A stretch of 64,000 nt of DNA from an uncultured Elusimicrobia bacterium (lineage in GTDB: Bacteria; Elusimicrobiota; Elusimicrobia; Elusimicrobiales; UBA9959): assembly GCA_903879915.1 (NCBI GenBank), contig CAIRNJ010000055.1:1-64000 (forward strand), in the 5' to 3' direction. The notes under the pieces were generated by a model. That model saw only the letters and a program-made list of their open reading frames with translations, did no database searches and was not told the DNA's origin. The position numbers and the translations under genes were made by a program. How positions within the stretch are numbered: the first letter of the stretch is position 1; the number at the start of each line of letters is the position of its first letter. Shown here one piece after another: positions 24,976-32,655 of the stretch.

Positions 24976-25004
24976 GTTGTTATCCTTAATTCGCGCGGGG
25001 CCGC

Positions 25005-25775
25005 TCAGCAGCCCAGCGTTATCCCCACCGGGCAGTGGTCAGAACCCTGCACTTCCGGCAGTATGAAAGCGTCCTTAACCAGGGCCGCTTTTTCTTTATT
25101 GATAAAGAAATAGTCGATGCGCCAGCCCACGTTCCTTTCGCGGGCGCGGGTCTTGTAATCCCACCAGCTGTACTGGCCGGGCTCGGGGTGGAAGGCCCGG
25201 AAAGTATCCACCCAGCCGAGGCCGGTTATTTTGTCCAGCCAGGCGCGCTCCACCGGCATGAAGCCCGAGTTCTCAACGTTCTCTTTGGGCCGGGCCAGGT
25301 CTATCTCATGATGCGCGGTGTTCACGTCGCCGCAGAAAATAACGGCTTTGCCCGCCGCGCGCAGTTTTTCGATATGCTCCAGGAAAGCCCCGTAGAACTC
25401 CAGCTTATAGGCCAGCCGCTCCGGGCCCTGCCCGCCGTTGGGGAAATAAACGTTGAGCAGGTAAAAATCCTTGTACTCCAGCGTTATCACGCGGCCTTCG
25501 CGGTCGAAGCGCTCGATCCCGAAGCCGTTGACCGACGCTCTCGGCGCATTCCTGTAGAAGGCGGCCACGCCGCTGTAACCGGGCCGTTCGGCGCTGTTCC
25601 AGGCGGCCTTATAGCCCGCGAAATCCGTATCCTTAGGGGTAAGCTGGGCGGGACTGGCCTTTACCTCCTGCAGGCCAAGTATGTCGGCCCCGGAGCCCAG
25701 CAAAAAAGGCCCGAAGCCTTTTTTCAGCGCGGCCCGGTAGCCGTTCACGTTCCAGGAAAGGATCTTCAGCGTCAT
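25005..25775 (-). CDS. xth: Exodeoxyribonuclease III (AP endonuclease)
   Basis: A 256-residue member of the endonuclease/exonuclease/phosphatase family that cuts at abasic sites and trims 3' ends in base-excision repair. All landmarks are present: LSWNVNGYRA at the start, LQEVKA with the metal-binding Glu, YFPNGG, GDVNTAHHEIDLARP, WWDYKTRARERNVGWRIDYFF and the terminal SDHCPV with catalytic Asp/His. Length matches the family. It lies between a small secreted protein (82 nt upstream) and metG (29 nt downstream) on the same strand. Confidence 0.95.
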   Translation of the reverse strand: MTLKILSWNVNGYRAALKKGFGPFLLGSGADILGLQEVKASPAQLTPKDTDFAGYKAAWNSAERPGYSGVAAFYRNAPRASVNGFGIERFDREGRVITLEYKDFYLLNVYFPNGGQGPERLAYKLEFYGAFLEHIEKLRAAGKAVIFCGDVNTAHHEIDLARPKENVENSGFMPVERAWLDKITGLGWVDTFRAFHPEPGQYSWWDYKTRARERNVGWRIDYFFINKEKAALVKDAFILPEVQGSDHCPVGITLGC

Positions 25776-25857
25776 AAGAATACGTACCGCGCAGCGCTGC
25801 GTAAGAACGGCGGGCGGCGTACGGTCCTTGACCAGCGCCGCCGGCAGGCCAGGGCGC

Positions 25858-26313
25858 TCAGGGCGCGGCGGTTACGGGCTTCTCCCCGGCCGGCTTGGGC
25901 GTTTCCTCCGCGGCCGGCTTTTCGGACGGGAGCTTTTCCAGCGCCTCTTTGGCGTCCTGCAGGTAAACGCTCTCGGGGTTGCCGCTGACGAACTTCTCCA
26001 GCGCGGCTTTGGCGCCCTTGTTGTCCCCGTCCACCGCCAGCTGTACGGCGTCGGCCAGCTGCTTGCGCTCGGCCTCCAGCTTTTTCTGCGCGGCTTCGGA
26101 AACCCCTCCCTTCCAGTACAGGGCATGGGCGTCCGCGCCCTGCTTGGCCCCGCGCACGGCGGCCACGGCCGAGATCCTGTTCTTCGAGGTCAGTTTTTTC
26201 TCCACCTTGGCCCTGAGCCCTTTCAGCAGGCTCTCGTACCAGCCGCCGGAATCCGCCGCGTACGCGGCGTTGACGGAGAACAGCAGCGCCAGCGTTAAAA
26301 GTATTTTTTTCAT
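25858..26313 (-). CDS. Small exported protein with a Pro-rich tail (151 aa)
   Basis: It has a clean signal peptide (KKILLTLALLFSVNAAYA). The mature part is mostly helical and charged (about 50-115), with KKLEAERKQLADAVQLAVDGDNKGAKAALEKFVSGNPESVYLQDAKEAL resembling one or two TPR/Sel1-like helices. The end is a Pro/Glu/Lys-rich tail. AGAGGGT is the Shine-Dalgarno site. It starts 8 nt after the stop of the 1157-residue TPR protein, so the two are co-transcribed and may work together in the periplasm. The family is not recognised. Confidence 0.72.
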   Translation of the reverse strand: MKKILLTLALLFSVNAAYAADSGGWYESLLKGLRAKVEKKLTSKNRISAVAAVRGAKQGADAHALYWKGGVSEAAQKKLEAERKQLADAVQLAVDGDNKGAKAALEKFVSGNPESVYLQDAKEALEKLPSEKPAAEETPKPAGEKPVTAAP

Positions 26314-26321
26314 ATACCCTC

Positions 26322-29300
26322 TTATTTCTGCAGTTTATCGCCGATGTTCTTCACCGCGGGGTCCAGTTTGGCGGCCTTGTCGGCGAACGTCTTCACGTCG
26401 TCCTTTTTGCCCTGTTTGTCGGCGGTCCGCGCCAGGTTCAGCCAGATCTCGGCGTCGTAGGGGTCGGCCTTGGCCGCGGCGAAATACTTTTCGTTCGCCG
26501 CCTCGTACCTGCCCTGCTGGTACGCCATGTTGCCCAGGTTGTTGAGCGCGGCAGCGTTGAAAGGCTCTTTCTCCAGCACTTTGGCGAACGACCTCTCCGC
26601 GTCGGCGGTCTCGCCCTGCTTGGCGGCCAGTATGCCCAGGTTAAGGTTGGCGTCCAGGTCGTCGGGGTTCTCCAGCAGCACGCGCCCGAAGTATTCCTTG
26701 AAGTAATTGTAGCGCGCCTTCAGCAGGGCGGCCACGCTGCCCTGCACCCTGGCCAGGAATCTGTCCCTGTCGGGATAGCTCTCGTCCGTGGTCGTTTCGG
26801 GCAGCGTCACCGGCTCGAACTCGGCCCAGGATTTCCTGACCTCTATCACGTGCACGTCCGCTTCGTTCTGACGGTAGAAGTCGGCCGCGTGCTTGATGGC
26901 GTCGTAAAGGTCCTTGCCCACCATGGTGACCTCGAGCCCCACCCAGTAAGTGTTCTCGTACTTTATAAGGTACTCGGCCGGCAGCCCCGCGTCGCGCGGG
27001 TCCGTGGCGCCGGTGTCGAACATCATGGAAATGTGGGCCGGGTAATCCAGCAGGGCCGTGCGCACGCCCGACGCCTCGAAGATGGCCGCGAACAGCGCGG
27101 TCAGGTCGTCGCAGTCCCCGCTCTTGAGCTTCAGCGTGGTGCGCGGGAACTGCACCGTGTCCAGCACGAGTTCCTTGGTGGACTTGAGCACCGAGTACGG
27201 GTTCACCGGGTCGGCCAGGTAGCTGAGGCCCTTCTCTCCCAGCGCCTCCCAGACCATCAGCGCGGTAACGATGTTCTCGTTGAGGTCGGAGGCCGCCTCC
27301 TCGGTCTTGCTCTTTTCGTTGAGCGCGAAGCGGCTGAAGCCGAACACCGGGGTGTCCTTCGGGGTTATGAAGTTGGCCAGCCGGGCCGGCTTGTCCCAGA
27401 CTATGGCGTTCTTCGAAAGCATCTTTATGGGCCTATTGAGCGTGGCGGTTTTCTCCGCCCCGTCCTGGTACCAGGTTACCGTGAGCTGGCACTGCACGGG
27501 TGTATCCTCGGTGATGCCCAGCACCCGGTTATTGAGCGTGGCCATGATATCCACCTCGGCCTTGGAATGCGGGGCGATGGAGCCCTCCACTATGGCGTCC
27601 GTGGGGAAGTCCATAAAATCCCGCAGGAAGAAGGAGACCTTCACGTTGCTGAATTCGTTGTTCGTGTTGTTCTGTATGCCGATGCGGCCCAGCGGATTTT
27701 TAAGGTAATGCTTATAGTTCGCCGAGAACACGAAGTTCAGCTCTCCGGGGAGTATTTCCATCGGGGCCAGGTTCTTATTGTCCGCCGCCGGTTTGGCCTT
27801 GGGGGCCTCAGGGCCCTGGAAATAGACCACGGCGGGGGCGGACAGGCCGCCCCTGACCCCGCTCACCGAAACGCCGGCCGCGTAGTAATAATAGGTGGTA
27901 TCCGGAGCCAGCCCGGTATCGGACAGCTTAGTTTCCGTAGAGGCCCCTACCTCCTGAAGCTCGCCTTTTTCGCCGGCCGCCCTGTAAACCTTGACCCCGC
28001 TGGTCCAGGCGTTGGGCCGCGCGGTCCAGGACAGGTCAACTCTGGTCTTGCCGGCCTCCGCCTTCAGCGCCGCGGGCGCCTCGGGCAGATAGCTGATATC
28101 GAAAGCAACTATCCGCGCGTTCTCCAGGTCGGAGATATAGACGCGGTCGTTGCGGAACGCCAGGTTCTGCGGCGTCCAGAGCTCGCGCTCGCCGCGGCCC
28201 TTGGCGAAGAAGCTCGCCGTGAATTTGCCGGCGGCGTCGAAGATCTTCACGTTGTAGCTGCCCTTGTCCAGGACATAGAAAAAACCTTTATTGTCGTAGA
28301 TCAGCGCGGCCGGGTCCTGCAGGCTCCCGGAGTCGTCCCACGCGCGCAGGAATTTCCCCATGGCGTCGGTCACTATCACCTTCTTCAGCACGGAGTCCAG
28401 GATGTAGACGTTCTTGTTCTCGTCGCAGCGCACCGCCACCGGGCTCATCAGCGTGATATCCCCGAACACCGGGCCCGCGGAGAACAGGAACATGCCGTCG
28501 GGACTGAACGCCTTTATTCTCTTGTTCTTGTTGTCGGCCACATAGATGTTGCCTTTGGAGTTAACGGCCACCGAGACGGGGTTCCTGAACTGACCTTCGT
28601 CCGAGCCGCTTTCGCCGAACATGTTGGAATAAGTGCCGTCGGGATTGAAGATCTGCACGCGGTCGTTGCCGGAATCCGCCACGTAGATCATGCCTTTGGG
28701 ACCCACGAAGATGCCGCGCGGGTTCTTCACCTGGCCCTGCGCCGAGCCGGCCTTGACCAGCGTTCTTTTAGTATCGCTGGAGAACAGCACGATCTCCCTG
28801 GTCTCCGGCAGGTAGGCTACGATGCTGTTGTCCGGCGTCACGGCGAAAACTTCGGCTTTGAACGGATATTTCGCGGCCGGCCCTTTTACGGTGAACCGGT
28901 CCAGCACCGGCGCCCGCTCCAGCCTTACGCCGCCCTCGGCGCTCTCCAGCCGTATGGACACCACCTTCTTGTTCTCCTCGTCGCACAGGTACAGGATGCC
29001 GGCCTCGTCTATGGCGATGTCGGTCAGCTTCTTGAACTCGCTCTTGCCTTTGCCCCGGGTGCCGAAAGTCCCTATCACCTCGCCCGAGCCGGCCATTTCC
29101 CGCACTTTGCCCTCTTTGGCGTTTATGGTGTAAATGGTCCCGTTCAGGTCCGGGGTGGCCCCGTCGTTGGCCATGGGGTATTCCTTAATGAGCCTGCCCG
29201 TCCGGTCATACTTCTGCAGCAGGGCCTTGCCCGGGTCGGAGACGTACACGTCCCCGGAATAGCTCAGCTCTATCTTGGCCGGTTCGAGCTTCGTCAGCCC

Positions 29301-29795
29301 GTCGGCCCTGCCCGCCGGGAAGCCGTAGAGATAGACGCCGTCGGAGTTGAAAACGTCCACGCGCGAATTGCCGGTATTGGAAACGTACACCCTGTCGTCC
29401 GGCCCGTAAGCCACGCCGCGCGGCCCGGCGAGCTGCCCGGGCGCCTCGCCTTCCCCCGCGAAAGCCCACAGCGCCCTGCCTTCGGCGTCGAACACGACTA
29501 TCCGTGAATTGCCGGTGTCCGCCACGTAGAGGCGGCCGCCGCCGAACGCCAGGGCCTGGGGCCCTTTCAGGCCGCCTTCGGCTTTCCTGAGCAGTTTCCC
29601 GTCCGCGTCGAAAATAAAGATGCAGTTGGCCTTGGCGTCCGCCACGTAGGTGCGGCCCTGCGCCACGGCAACGGCCGAGAGCTTCATGAAAGCCGGGTTC
29701 AGCATCTGGCTCCTGAACTCTATTTTTTCATAAGCGCCGGCGCCGGCCGCCGAAAAAGCCAGTACTGCGAAAAAGATAAAAGCGCGATTGGACAT
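26322..29795 (-). CDS. 1157-aa exported NHL-propeller / FN3 / transglutaminase-like / TPR protein
   Basis: A signal peptide (NRAFIFFAVLAFSAAGAGA) is followed by two NHL-repeat beta-propellers (about 35-275 and 300-585). Repeats have the form G-x-(I/L)-Y-V-A-D-x-x-N-x-R-(I/V), e.g. GRLYVADTGNSRIVVFD, MIYVADSGNDRVQIF and NIYVADNKNKRIKAF. An FN3 domain follows (about 590-670, APDTTYYYYAAGVSVSGVRG), then an Ig-like region (~700-840), a transglutaminase-like domain (~880-1010) with KSGDCDDLTALFAAIFEASG supplying Cys and AHISMMF supplying His, and C-terminal TPRs (~1045-1140). GGAGG precedes the ATG. The combination suggests a large periplasmic or surface scaffold that binds polymers and processes or crosslinks protein; each domain is recognised, the joint function is not. 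Confidence 0.85.
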   Translation of the reverse strand: MSNRAFIFFAVLAFSAAGAGAYEKIEFRSQMLNPAFMKLSAVAVAQGRTYVADAKANCIFIFDADGKLLRKAEGGLKGPQALAFGGGRLYVADTGNSRIVVFDAEGRALWAFAGEGEAPGQLAGPRGVAYGPDDRVYVSNTGNSRVDVFNSDGVYLYGFPAGRADGLTKLEPAKIELSYSGDVYVSDPGKALLQKYDRTGRLIKEYPMANDGATPDLNGTIYTINAKEGKVREMAGSGEVIGTFGTRGKGKSEFKKLTDIAIDEAGILYLCDEENKKVVSIRLESAEGGVRLERAPVLDRFTVKGPAAKYPFKAEVFAVTPDNSIVAYLPETREIVLFSSDTKRTLVKAGSAQGQVKNPRGIFVGPKGMIYVADSGNDRVQIFNPDGTYSNMFGESGSDEGQFRNPVSVAVNSKGNIYVADNKNKRIKAFSPDGMFLFSAGPVFGDITLMSPVAVRCDENKNVYILDSVLKKVIVTDAMGKFLRAWDDSGSLQDPAALIYDNKGFFYVLDKGSYNVKIFDAAGKFTASFFAKGRGERELWTPQNLAFRNDRVYISDLENARIVAFDISYLPEAPAALKAEAGKTRVDLSWTARPNAWTSGVKVYRAAGEKGELQEVGASTETKLSDTGLAPDTTYYYYAAGVSVSGVRGGLSAPAVVYFQGPEAPKAKPAADNKNLAPMEILPGELNFVFSANYKHYLKNPLGRIGIQNNTNNEFSNVKVSFFLRDFMDFPTDAIVEGSIAPHSKAEVDIMATLNNRVLGITEDTPVQCQLTVTWYQDGAEKTATLNRPIKMLSKNAIVWDKPARLANFITPKDTPVFGFSRFALNEKSKTEEAASDLNENIVTALMVWEALGEKGLSYLADPVNPYSVLKSTKELVLDTVQFPRTTLKLKSGDCDDLTALFAAIFEASGVRTALLDYPAHISMMFDTGATDPRDAGLPAEYLIKYENTYWVGLEVTMVGKDLYDAIKHAADFYRQNEADVHVIEVRKSWAEFEPVTLPETTTDESYPDRDRFLARVQGSVAALLKARYNYFKEYFGRVLLENPDDLDANLNLGILAAKQGETADAERSFAKVLEKEPFNAAALNNLGNMAYQQGRYEAANEKYFAAAKADPYDAEIWLNLARTADKQGKKDDVKTFADKAAKLDPAVKNIGDKLQK

Positions 29796-29910
29796 GCTGC
29801 CTCCAGGGAGATACTCTGCTTGTGGTATTTTATTATATTTAGACGCGCGAAAGGAAAGGGCCGCTATTTCGCGTATTATATTTGCTTATAACCCGTTAAG
29901 GAAAAGATTC

Positions 29911-29939
29911 TTGCCTTGCTGGCGCTAATTACCTAATAT
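29911..29939 (+). promoter_or_regulatory. Sigma-70-type promoter of the sdh operon
   Basis: TTGCCT (29911-29916) and TAATAT (29934-29939) are separated by exactly 17 bases, 83 nt before the sdhC start. This is the best -35/-10 pair in the 226-bp gap between the divergent NHL/TPR gene and sdhC. An additional TATTATATTT run at about 29874 could serve either direction. Confidence 0.6.
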
Positions 29940-30021
29940 ACTCCCATAGGGCCCGGCGGCGGACACTGCCGCTTTACAGGGCGCCGGGCGTATTTTCACG
30001 TCATTCGTTTAGGAGTCAAGT

Positions 30022-30705
30022 ATGGATATCACTTTCATAAAGCGGTTCGCATTTACCTCTATCGGCAGGAAGGCCGTGATGGCCGCCTCGGGCCTGCTGT
30101 TGGGCGCTTTCATGCTGATCCACCTGGCGGAGAACCTGCTGCTGTTCAAGGGCGAAGCCTTCTACAACGGCTGGGTGGATTTCCTGCTCACGAACCCCGT
30201 AACCCCGTTCCTCGAGGCGGCCCTGGCGCTCATTTTCGTGGCGCACATCATAGCCGGCACCTGGGTACGCGTGGAGGACTTCATCAACTCGCCCGGCGGC
30301 TATGAAGCCCGCAAATGGCAGGGCGGCCGCACCATCGGCTCGGCCACCATGCTCTATACCGCCATAGCCATACTGGCCTACCTGGTCTATCACATGCTCA
30401 CTTTCCGCCTGGTGGACCATTCCATGGGCTTTTTTCAGATGGTCACCTCGGCCTTCCGCCGCCCCGTGTTCGTGGCCGTTTACGTGGCCGGCTCGGCGGC
30501 GCTGGCGCTGCACCTCAGCCACGGCATGCAGAGCGCTTTCCAGACCCTGGGCCTGAACCACCCCAAATATACCCCGCTGATCAAGGTCCTCGGCCTGCTC
30601 ACGGCCGTTGCCATGGTAGGCTTCGCGCTGATCTCCCTTTATTATCTGGCCGGCATAGACCTTAAAGCGGCCGAAACGGGCATCGAGATGGTGGTCATAC
30701 AGTAA
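30022..30705 (+). CDS. sdhC: Succinate dehydrogenase/fumarate reductase cytochrome b subunit (type B)
   Basis: A 227-residue single-subunit membrane anchor of the b558 family, with five hydrophobic segments. These subunits hold heme b and the quinone site and anchor the SdhAB dimer. Histidines at the expected segment positions are seen in AFMLIHLAENLLL, FVAHIIAGTW, YLVYHMLTF and LALHLSHGMQSAFQ. The long single anchor with no SdhD places it with the Bacteroidetes/epsilonproteobacterial/Bacillus type B enzymes. AGGAG lies before the ATG; sdhA follows 36 nt later. Confidence 0.92.
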   Translation: MDITFIKRFAFTSIGRKAVMAASGLLLGAFMLIHLAENLLLFKGEAFYNGWVDFLLTNPVTPFLEAALALIFVAHIIAGTWVRVEDFINSPGGYEARKWQGGRTIGSATMLYTAIAILAYLVYHMLTFRLVDHSMGFFQMVTSAFRRPVFVAVYVAGSAALALHLSHGMQSAFQTLGLNHPKYTPLIKVLGLLTAVAMVGFALISLYYLAGIDLKAAETGIEMVVIQ

Positions 30706-30741
30706 CGCGCGGCGCTGCGATCCCAACAGTCGGAGGAAGCT

Positions 30742-32655
<1,914 letters not shown>

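Follow-up and report, generated by a model that had tools for sequence, protein, structure and literature searches.

A conserved pair of predicted exported proteins, one with a transglutaminase-like core, in Elusimicrobiota

LapG is described in PMC3032545 as a transglutaminase-like cysteine protease that cuts LapA between Ala108 and Ala109, and LapG-LapA may thus set the precedent for a transglutaminase-fold protease that is exported and attacks a short site in a partner dedicated to it. The catalytic triad of the superfamily is given in PMC4866520 as usually Cys-His-Asp/Glu, and an active Cys-His-Glu acetyltransferase is named in the reference list of that paper (Kubiak 2013). Here we analyzed a gene of an uncultured Elusimicrobia bacterium that lies on the minus strand of a 64,000-nucleotide stretch of contig CAIRNJ010000055.1 (hereafter the window). 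Elusimicrobiota are mostly known from metagenomes, and no function was found for the exported protein of more than 1100 residues that this large gene (26322..29795) encodes. A conserved gene directly downstream (26313-25858), referred to here as the partner, had been missed in the original prediction for this DNA. We tentatively propose, with somewhat less than even confidence, that the two genes make up an envelope module of two components: an enzyme with a transglutaminase fold and a Cys-His-Glu triad, and the partner, a peptide of which it would act on or be docked by.

The large gene has an ATG start and encodes 1157 residues, as supported by its open reading frame (ORF), Pfam/NCBIfam matches and homologues. 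Its N-terminus, MSNRAFIFFAVLAFSAAGAGA, reads by eye as a Sec-type signal peptide (residues ~1-21, 29733..29795). The first NHL propeller (residues ~37-290, 28926..29687) was recognized by NHL, SGL and PQQ_2 matches and by our family hidden Markov model (HMM) P1, and the second (residues ~335-566, 28098..28793) by NHL stretches and by solved NHL structures that match from residue 349 (6d69 to 430, 8j72 to 438). With 142 bits against a Pfam cut-off of 20, an E-value of 1.4e-42 and eight stretches, the protein belongs to the NHL family. The putative FN3 domain that follows (residues 573-655, 27831..28079) scored 18.5 bits (E 0.0024), under the 25-bit Pfam cut-off, and our own family HMM found it at the same place in homologues. 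Next come an Ig-like beta-sandwich (residues ~676-800, 27396..27770), identified from the predicted structure and matches to Ig-type domains, and a transglutaminase-fold domain (residues ~800-1010, 26766..27398), assigned from the model, structure comparison and profile-profile alignment. Tetratricopeptide repeats (TPRs; residues ~1049-1147, 26355..26651) close the protein, with matches to TPR_17, TPR_16, TPR_2 and other Pfam families at E-values down to 3.6e-13. The original prediction of an exported protein with a transglutaminase-like core among binding domains was supported; its list of NHL, FN3, transglutaminase-like and TPR domains holds, with the correction that it had overlooked the Ig-like domain between FN3 and the core.

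Comparison of the large protein with three homologues gave nonsynonymous rates (dN) of ~0.10-0.24, synonymous rates (dS) of ~0.81-0.93 and dN/dS ratios of ~0.12-0.26. Because 38 further homologues could be aligned and dN is well under dS, the domain order is not a product of chance. The protein, which appears to be exported, is conserved and, in these three comparisons, under purifying selection. Scans for promoters and terminators around the genes stayed at or under chance level, and no Rfam family reached the gathering level in 25000-31000. A PADLOC search gave a single weak match, PD-T4-6 (E 0.00096), which is located on a propeller and was taken as a propeller match.

No Pfam family scored over its cut-off in residues 676-1010. 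On the isolated region, Transglut_core (PF01841) reached 15.3 bits (E 0.025) against a 23-bit cut-off, so that the region is not a member of this family, and DUF553 (PF04473) reached 14.2 bits against a cut-off of 20.5. Transglut_core was absent among the 25 of 37 Pfam families listed for the whole large protein, and Transglut_core searches of the own genome gave no match on the contig of the large gene. Since the score is below the cut-off, the fold assignment needed further evidence. Structure prediction of the Ig-like and transglutaminase region with 39 homologues yielded a confident two-domain model with a mean predicted local distance difference test score (pLDDT) of 90.4 and a predicted template-modelling score (pTM) of 0.86. 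In structure comparison, model residues 1-121 form an Ig-like sandwich with many Ig-type matches (best 8u01, Z 11.3), including the barrel at the C-terminus of transglutaminase 2 (6kzb, Z 10.6). For the C-terminal part of the model, matches were found over 154 residues of peptide:N-glycanase (1x3w, Z 9.9) and over 134 residues of a putative protease (3kd4, Z 9.7). Moreover, when 23 homologues were aligned, profile against profile, with 14 PF01841 domains taken from related genomes, the E-value was 1.9e-6 and the probability 89.6, and one homologue, at locus L142 (L numbers denote loci, G numbers genomes), is itself over the Transglut_core cut-off (23.6 vs 23 bits). Foldseek returned two rows only at E-values up to 0.001, with low template-modelling scores; as it is weak alone, the fold rests on the structure comparison, the profile alignment and L142. 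The core sequence profile matched just two arrestin-chimera rows (E 0.43) among PDB chains. On the strength of the predicted model and the alignments, we assign the core to the transglutaminase-like superfamily.

Within this core, the nucleophile position Cys895 in GDCDDL (27111..27113) and His921 in AHISMMF (27033..27035), both previously described as intact, and the third catalytic position, Glu955 in WVGLEVT (26931..26933), are invariant in 39/39 close and 23/23 wider alignment rows. The two alignments have 15 rows in common, and the first consists of the large protein and 38 homologues, of which L061 ends at a contig end. In the profile-profile alignment, Cys895 and His921 fall on the canonical Cys and His, and Glu955 takes the place of the canonical Asp. 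The third catalytic residue is therefore not lost, judged by its invariance, but it is Glu where a Cys-His-Asp triad had been expected. The triad is conserved even where the neighbors of the Cys vary (GNCSAM in L046, GNCADV in L037), and Cys-His-Glu can be read in L139-L144 as well, despite their different N-termini. By sequence positions, the core conforms to the Cys-His-Asp/Glu pattern of the superfamily, and its transglutaminase-type active site appears intact but unusual in having Glu for Asp.

The partner gene (25858..26313, minus strand) was defined from its ORF, homologues and co-occurrence; it lies 8 bp downstream of the large gene and encodes 151 residues that by eye begin with an export signal. 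As both proteins seem to carry signal peptides, they would act outside the cytoplasm. Pfam and NCBIfam searches of the partner at E-values up to 10 gave nothing over cut-off. The most conserved part of this otherwise divergent protein is SAVAAVRG...LYWKG, in which SAVAAVRG occupies residues 48-55 (26149..26172), as seen in an alignment of 57 rows and in the predicted model. G55 is present in all 57 rows, V50, V53 and R54 in 96%, and the Y, W and K of LYWKG in 89, 91 and 96%, respectively; two contigs are counted twice among these rows (L151 and L156 are apparently identical with the contigs of L127 and L124), and a 30-row alignment (A3) was picked from them for spread. In the model of the partner (pTM 0.46), residues 42-72, including the motif, are unstructured (pLDDT ~55); its C-terminal helices are predicted with confidence. 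Near-invariance within a segment predicted to be disordered is typical of short linear motifs.

A degenerate DNA pattern of the VA[AG]VRG type occurred at 10, 3, 4, 18, 1 and 20 sites in G000, G018, G042, G304, G212 and G152, respectively, and its reversed control at 6, 3, 7, 12, 5 and 23 sites. Since these counts are close, the motif is not enriched across proteins. Eight of the 10 own-genome sites were read in context; these include the partner itself and a protein of 606 residues (L212:1039-2859), whose FecR domain (86-179) holds TPSAVAAVRGTEF at 154-160. The latter protein ends in a long low-complexity tail, and a FecR protein is also found near the large gene/partner pair in L119.

Judged from sequence, a core of this type may hydrolyze or cross-link. 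As a true transglutaminase, it would cross-link a Gln in one envelope protein with an amine and might in this way attach the partner, which has Lys and Gln near VRGAKQ, to another protein. The first three Foldseek hits are indeed transglutaminase 2, where closer comparison aligns the Ig-like domain, and Lys and Gln are frequent in the stretch after the motif. However, the matches of the catalytic domain are peptide:N-glycanase, a putative protease and others, with no transglutaminase catalytic domain among the 50 rows listed, which excludes nothing, and Gln follows VRG in only ~70% of the 57 rows. We therefore consider a true transglutaminase improbable; cross-linking appears possible but less likely.

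The large gene and the partner co-occur almost perfectly. Both were present in 88 of 294 Elusimicrobiota genomes, the core only in 2, the partner only in 2 and neither in 202, at thresholds of E up to 1e-5 for the core and up to 1e-10 for the partner. The latter threshold left the partner in 90 genomes and dropped 17 of 107, whose weaker matches mostly cover the helical C-terminal part alone. These counts were taken from profile searches instead of the gene-cluster table, which takes the longest ORFs, has wrong frames in GC-rich stretches and shows the partner in no more than 39 loci. The partner is directly downstream on the same strand in 83 of the two-gene genomes. Among the neighborhood stretches, which were fetched for a selection of genomes, 34 of 38 loci carry a partner homologue; the other four genomes (G043, G051, G056, G044) have it on another contig, and in G044 both genes are at contig ends and may truly adjoin. 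In G043, G051, G056 and G256 both genes are retained but not linked. An ordinary reading is available for three of the four genomes with one gene: in G287 (core only) the large gene is immediately followed by a short ORF that weakly matches the partner, and in G032 and G305 (partner only) the partner is at a contig end. In the phylum of Desulfuromonas, the core was matched in 11 of 247 genomes, and all six strong partner matches fall within these 11. Taken together, the pairing of large gene and partner is well supported.

Such an association could also be found for an ordinary periplasmic pair with unrelated functions, held together through operon inheritance alone. The wider neighborhood is conserved too within the family of the window, and the core tree largely tracks the lineages. 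However, both genes persist in the four genomes in which they are unlinked, across changed outside neighbors, and in another phylum, and we regard this account as improbable.

A 335-residue core region was matched in 53 of 101 genomes, comprising that of the window and its relatives. These matches include 51 of 59 genomes of the window's own family f1 (G032 and G037 weakly); among the 42 others, 2 genomes match and both belong to family f2. The non-matching genomes outside f1 are, as far as listed, small-genome f2 genera, with 28 unlisted; these genera are presumably gut bacteria, which would fit a possible loss in host-associated lineages. At E-values up to 1e-5, the core profile was found in 90 of the 294 Elusimicrobiota genomes, 89 of them in the class of the window. 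By record title, 50 of 57 named loci belong to Elusimicrobia or kin, six to a plain 'bacterium' and one to a Desulfuromonas metagenome-assembled genome (MAG). The order propeller-propeller-FN3-Ig-transglutaminase-TPR was found in 9/9 loci L119-L127, the Desulfuromonas MAG among them, and in 11/11 class-level loci L148-L158, of which L151 and L156 duplicate L127 and L124. The large protein thus appears, from these alignments, to represent an uncharacterised family of fixed plan rather than a one-off. Its combination of domains, which had been called unusual, is so among named families but is the regular plan of this one; proteins of the same plan are many in number, and none was found characterised. 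A literature search, which covered titles and abstract openings and only thinly the subscription journals, returned nothing about the module, and a plasmid search with the core gave no match. As a side observation, a GatB-like gene was seen by eye upstream of the large gene in L121, L122 and L149, and L150:6514-11430 (G286) holds GatB and the large protein in one frame of 1638 residues with no stop between, which is either a fusion or a lost stop.

Related cores in the phylum of Desulfuromonas carry other N-termini. In L139-L144 no NHL match was found: L139, L140 and L141 lack the NHL propellers and keep the core and the adjacent downstream partner, L142 has a weak TolB_N match, and L143 and L144 have Reg_prop propellers, L143 with a PorZ-like match as well. 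In L145, which ends at a contig end, NHL, FN3, TPR and Ig are present. The seven rows of this phylum split from the 56 others in the core tree (99/91), in which long branches are of unsure placement. That L139-L141 have core and partner without NHL points to the partner, not a propeller ligand, as the more constant counterpart of the core. The original observation was confirmed and its interpretation is partly supported, with modification of an extracellular protein bound by the propellers a hypothesis.

The strongest rival to an enzyme is a scaffold, in which the large protein would hold an outer-membrane or surface complex and the core would bind the motif in its cleft or via an added beta-strand, with no processing. 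Nearly everything besides the core consists of binding domains, and in some relatives the core is joined to an envelope protein or has one as its neighbor: a GNA1162-like protein adjoins L139, a CsgG-containing protein adjoins L140, L142 has the weak TolB_N match, and L147:4964-7585 (G148), a distant Elusimicrobiota locus, combines PorV-family, CsgG and transglutaminase-like parts in one protein of 873 residues. In addition, the motif letters lie inside a FecR domain of the own genome (TPSAVAAVRGTEF, L212), where they would be structural. However, a pure scaffold would need none of the Cys, His and Glu residues, which are invariant in both alignments, and we hold the scaffold to be a serious but doubtful possibility.

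A natural domain swap was found in G002, contig C94 (L037). Compared with the window DNA in steps of 150 columns, L037 is 93-99% identical around and in the propeller half, 55-76% from residue ~663 to the end of the gene, 87-99% over the partner and the next gene, and 81-85% where the comparison ends. At the protein level, identity to the window protein is 97-99% for the propellers and FN3 (98-99% for the propellers alone), 64% for the Ig-like domain, 51% for the transglutaminase domain and 47% for the TPRs. The swapped half is closest to L060 and L040, which belong to another genus, as the tree also shows (100/100). Since the MAG G002 has 5% contamination, a chimera is possible, yet it would take two junctions, one at either end of a single domain block. 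We read L037, on its sequence, as an intragenic recombinant that exchanged its Ig-transglutaminase-TPR half, which suggests that this half is an exchangeable unit and tolerates a partner from another lineage.

Returning to the module that we tentatively favor, the large protein would be a cysteine enzyme of the transglutaminase superfamily with a Cys-His-Glu triad, set between recognition domains, with two NHL propellers and FN3 in front and the Ig-like domain and TPRs around the core. The core would most likely be a peptidase or another acyl-transfer enzyme working on the flexible SAVAAVRG...LYWKG segment, which the partner would present beside its helical C-terminal domain, and the lineage-variable N-terminal domains would bring a further envelope client. 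We infer the enzyme activity, the identity of the client and the use of the motif as a substrate rather than as a docking peptide. A more far-reaching version, which we consider unlikely, is an envelope processing system of a new kind, with a Cys-His-Glu peptidase or ligase, exchangeable sensor domains and a near-universal SAVAAVRG...LYWKG tag by which a dedicated partner is recognised, and with the catalytic half traded between species by recombination independently of sensors and partner.

Several observations weigh against the proposed module. No Cys-His-Glu signature could be read in L146 and L147, which are more distant. In the phylum of Desulfuromonas, G329, G367, G392, G427 and G493, five of the 11 genomes with the core, have no strong partner match; the core matches of G427 and G493 are partial. 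Extra partner copies with the motif occur in G257 (L229 and L230) and G006 (L231) with no recognised large gene on the fetched stretch. The counts of co-occurrence lack independence, as the two genes are for the most part passed on jointly. The motif pattern is missed by 4 of the 57 partner rows (L031, L033, L120 and L155), and its di-Ala is not strict (AG, GG and FG occur), unlike the LapG site. In G002, finally, the Ig-transglutaminase-TPR half was swapped and the partner stayed window-type; any fit between enzyme and partner is therefore not allele-specific.

Of the known families, Transglut_core (PF01841) and DUF553 (PF04473) have the fold, the Cys and His motifs and the position of the third residue in common with the large protein, which differs in its scores below the Pfam cut-offs, Glu for Asp, ~19 extra columns between His and Glu and a constant Ig-like domain in front. 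ScyF/NHL-repeat proteins (NF035926) are alike in the NHL propeller sequence (213.5 bits), but the cut-off of 350 is missed and the 376-position profile is too short for such a transglutaminase part. Positions 12 to at most 328 of the 1903 of anti-phage ProA (NF058533) match the Ig-transglutaminase region in 8/8 proteins scanned, at E-values of 2e-7 to 2e-16 and, on the window protein, over residues 702-922. However, the scores lie at 28-59 bits, where 1500 is the cut-off (the window protein scores 24.8 bits in full and 28.6 over its region), and the rest of ProA is absent, so that the protein is not a ProA; our literature search found no title on anti-phage ProA, and the likeness to its N-terminus is a lead only. 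The related cores L139-L144 have the Ig-transglutaminase core and Cys-His-Glu in common with the large protein; these and L147 differ in their N-termini, and the partner is adjacent only in L139-L141.

At E-values up to 10 the core region matched only PF01841 and PF04473 and not the LapG family, and its third residue is Glu; it is thus no member of BTLCP/LapG. Pfam, we assume, includes DUF920, the sequence family of LapG. LapG is not known to have propellers or TPRs. The likeness is that a cysteine enzyme with a transglutaminase fold is exported and has a short peptide, here a candidate, as its target in a partner of its own, whereas LapG, as described in PMC3032545, has a C-H-D triad and a large adhesin as its target. 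Each part of the module is of a familiar kind; the parts in their fixed combination, the C-H-E core together with the Ig-like domain, and the partner motif have no match among the named families searched. The module offers a testable pair of enzyme and candidate peptide, with a clear motif, a set of catalytic residues and a natural recombinant. If the motif is processed, it would represent a second enzyme-partner logic, beside LapG-LapA, for transglutaminase-fold enzymes outside the cytoplasm.

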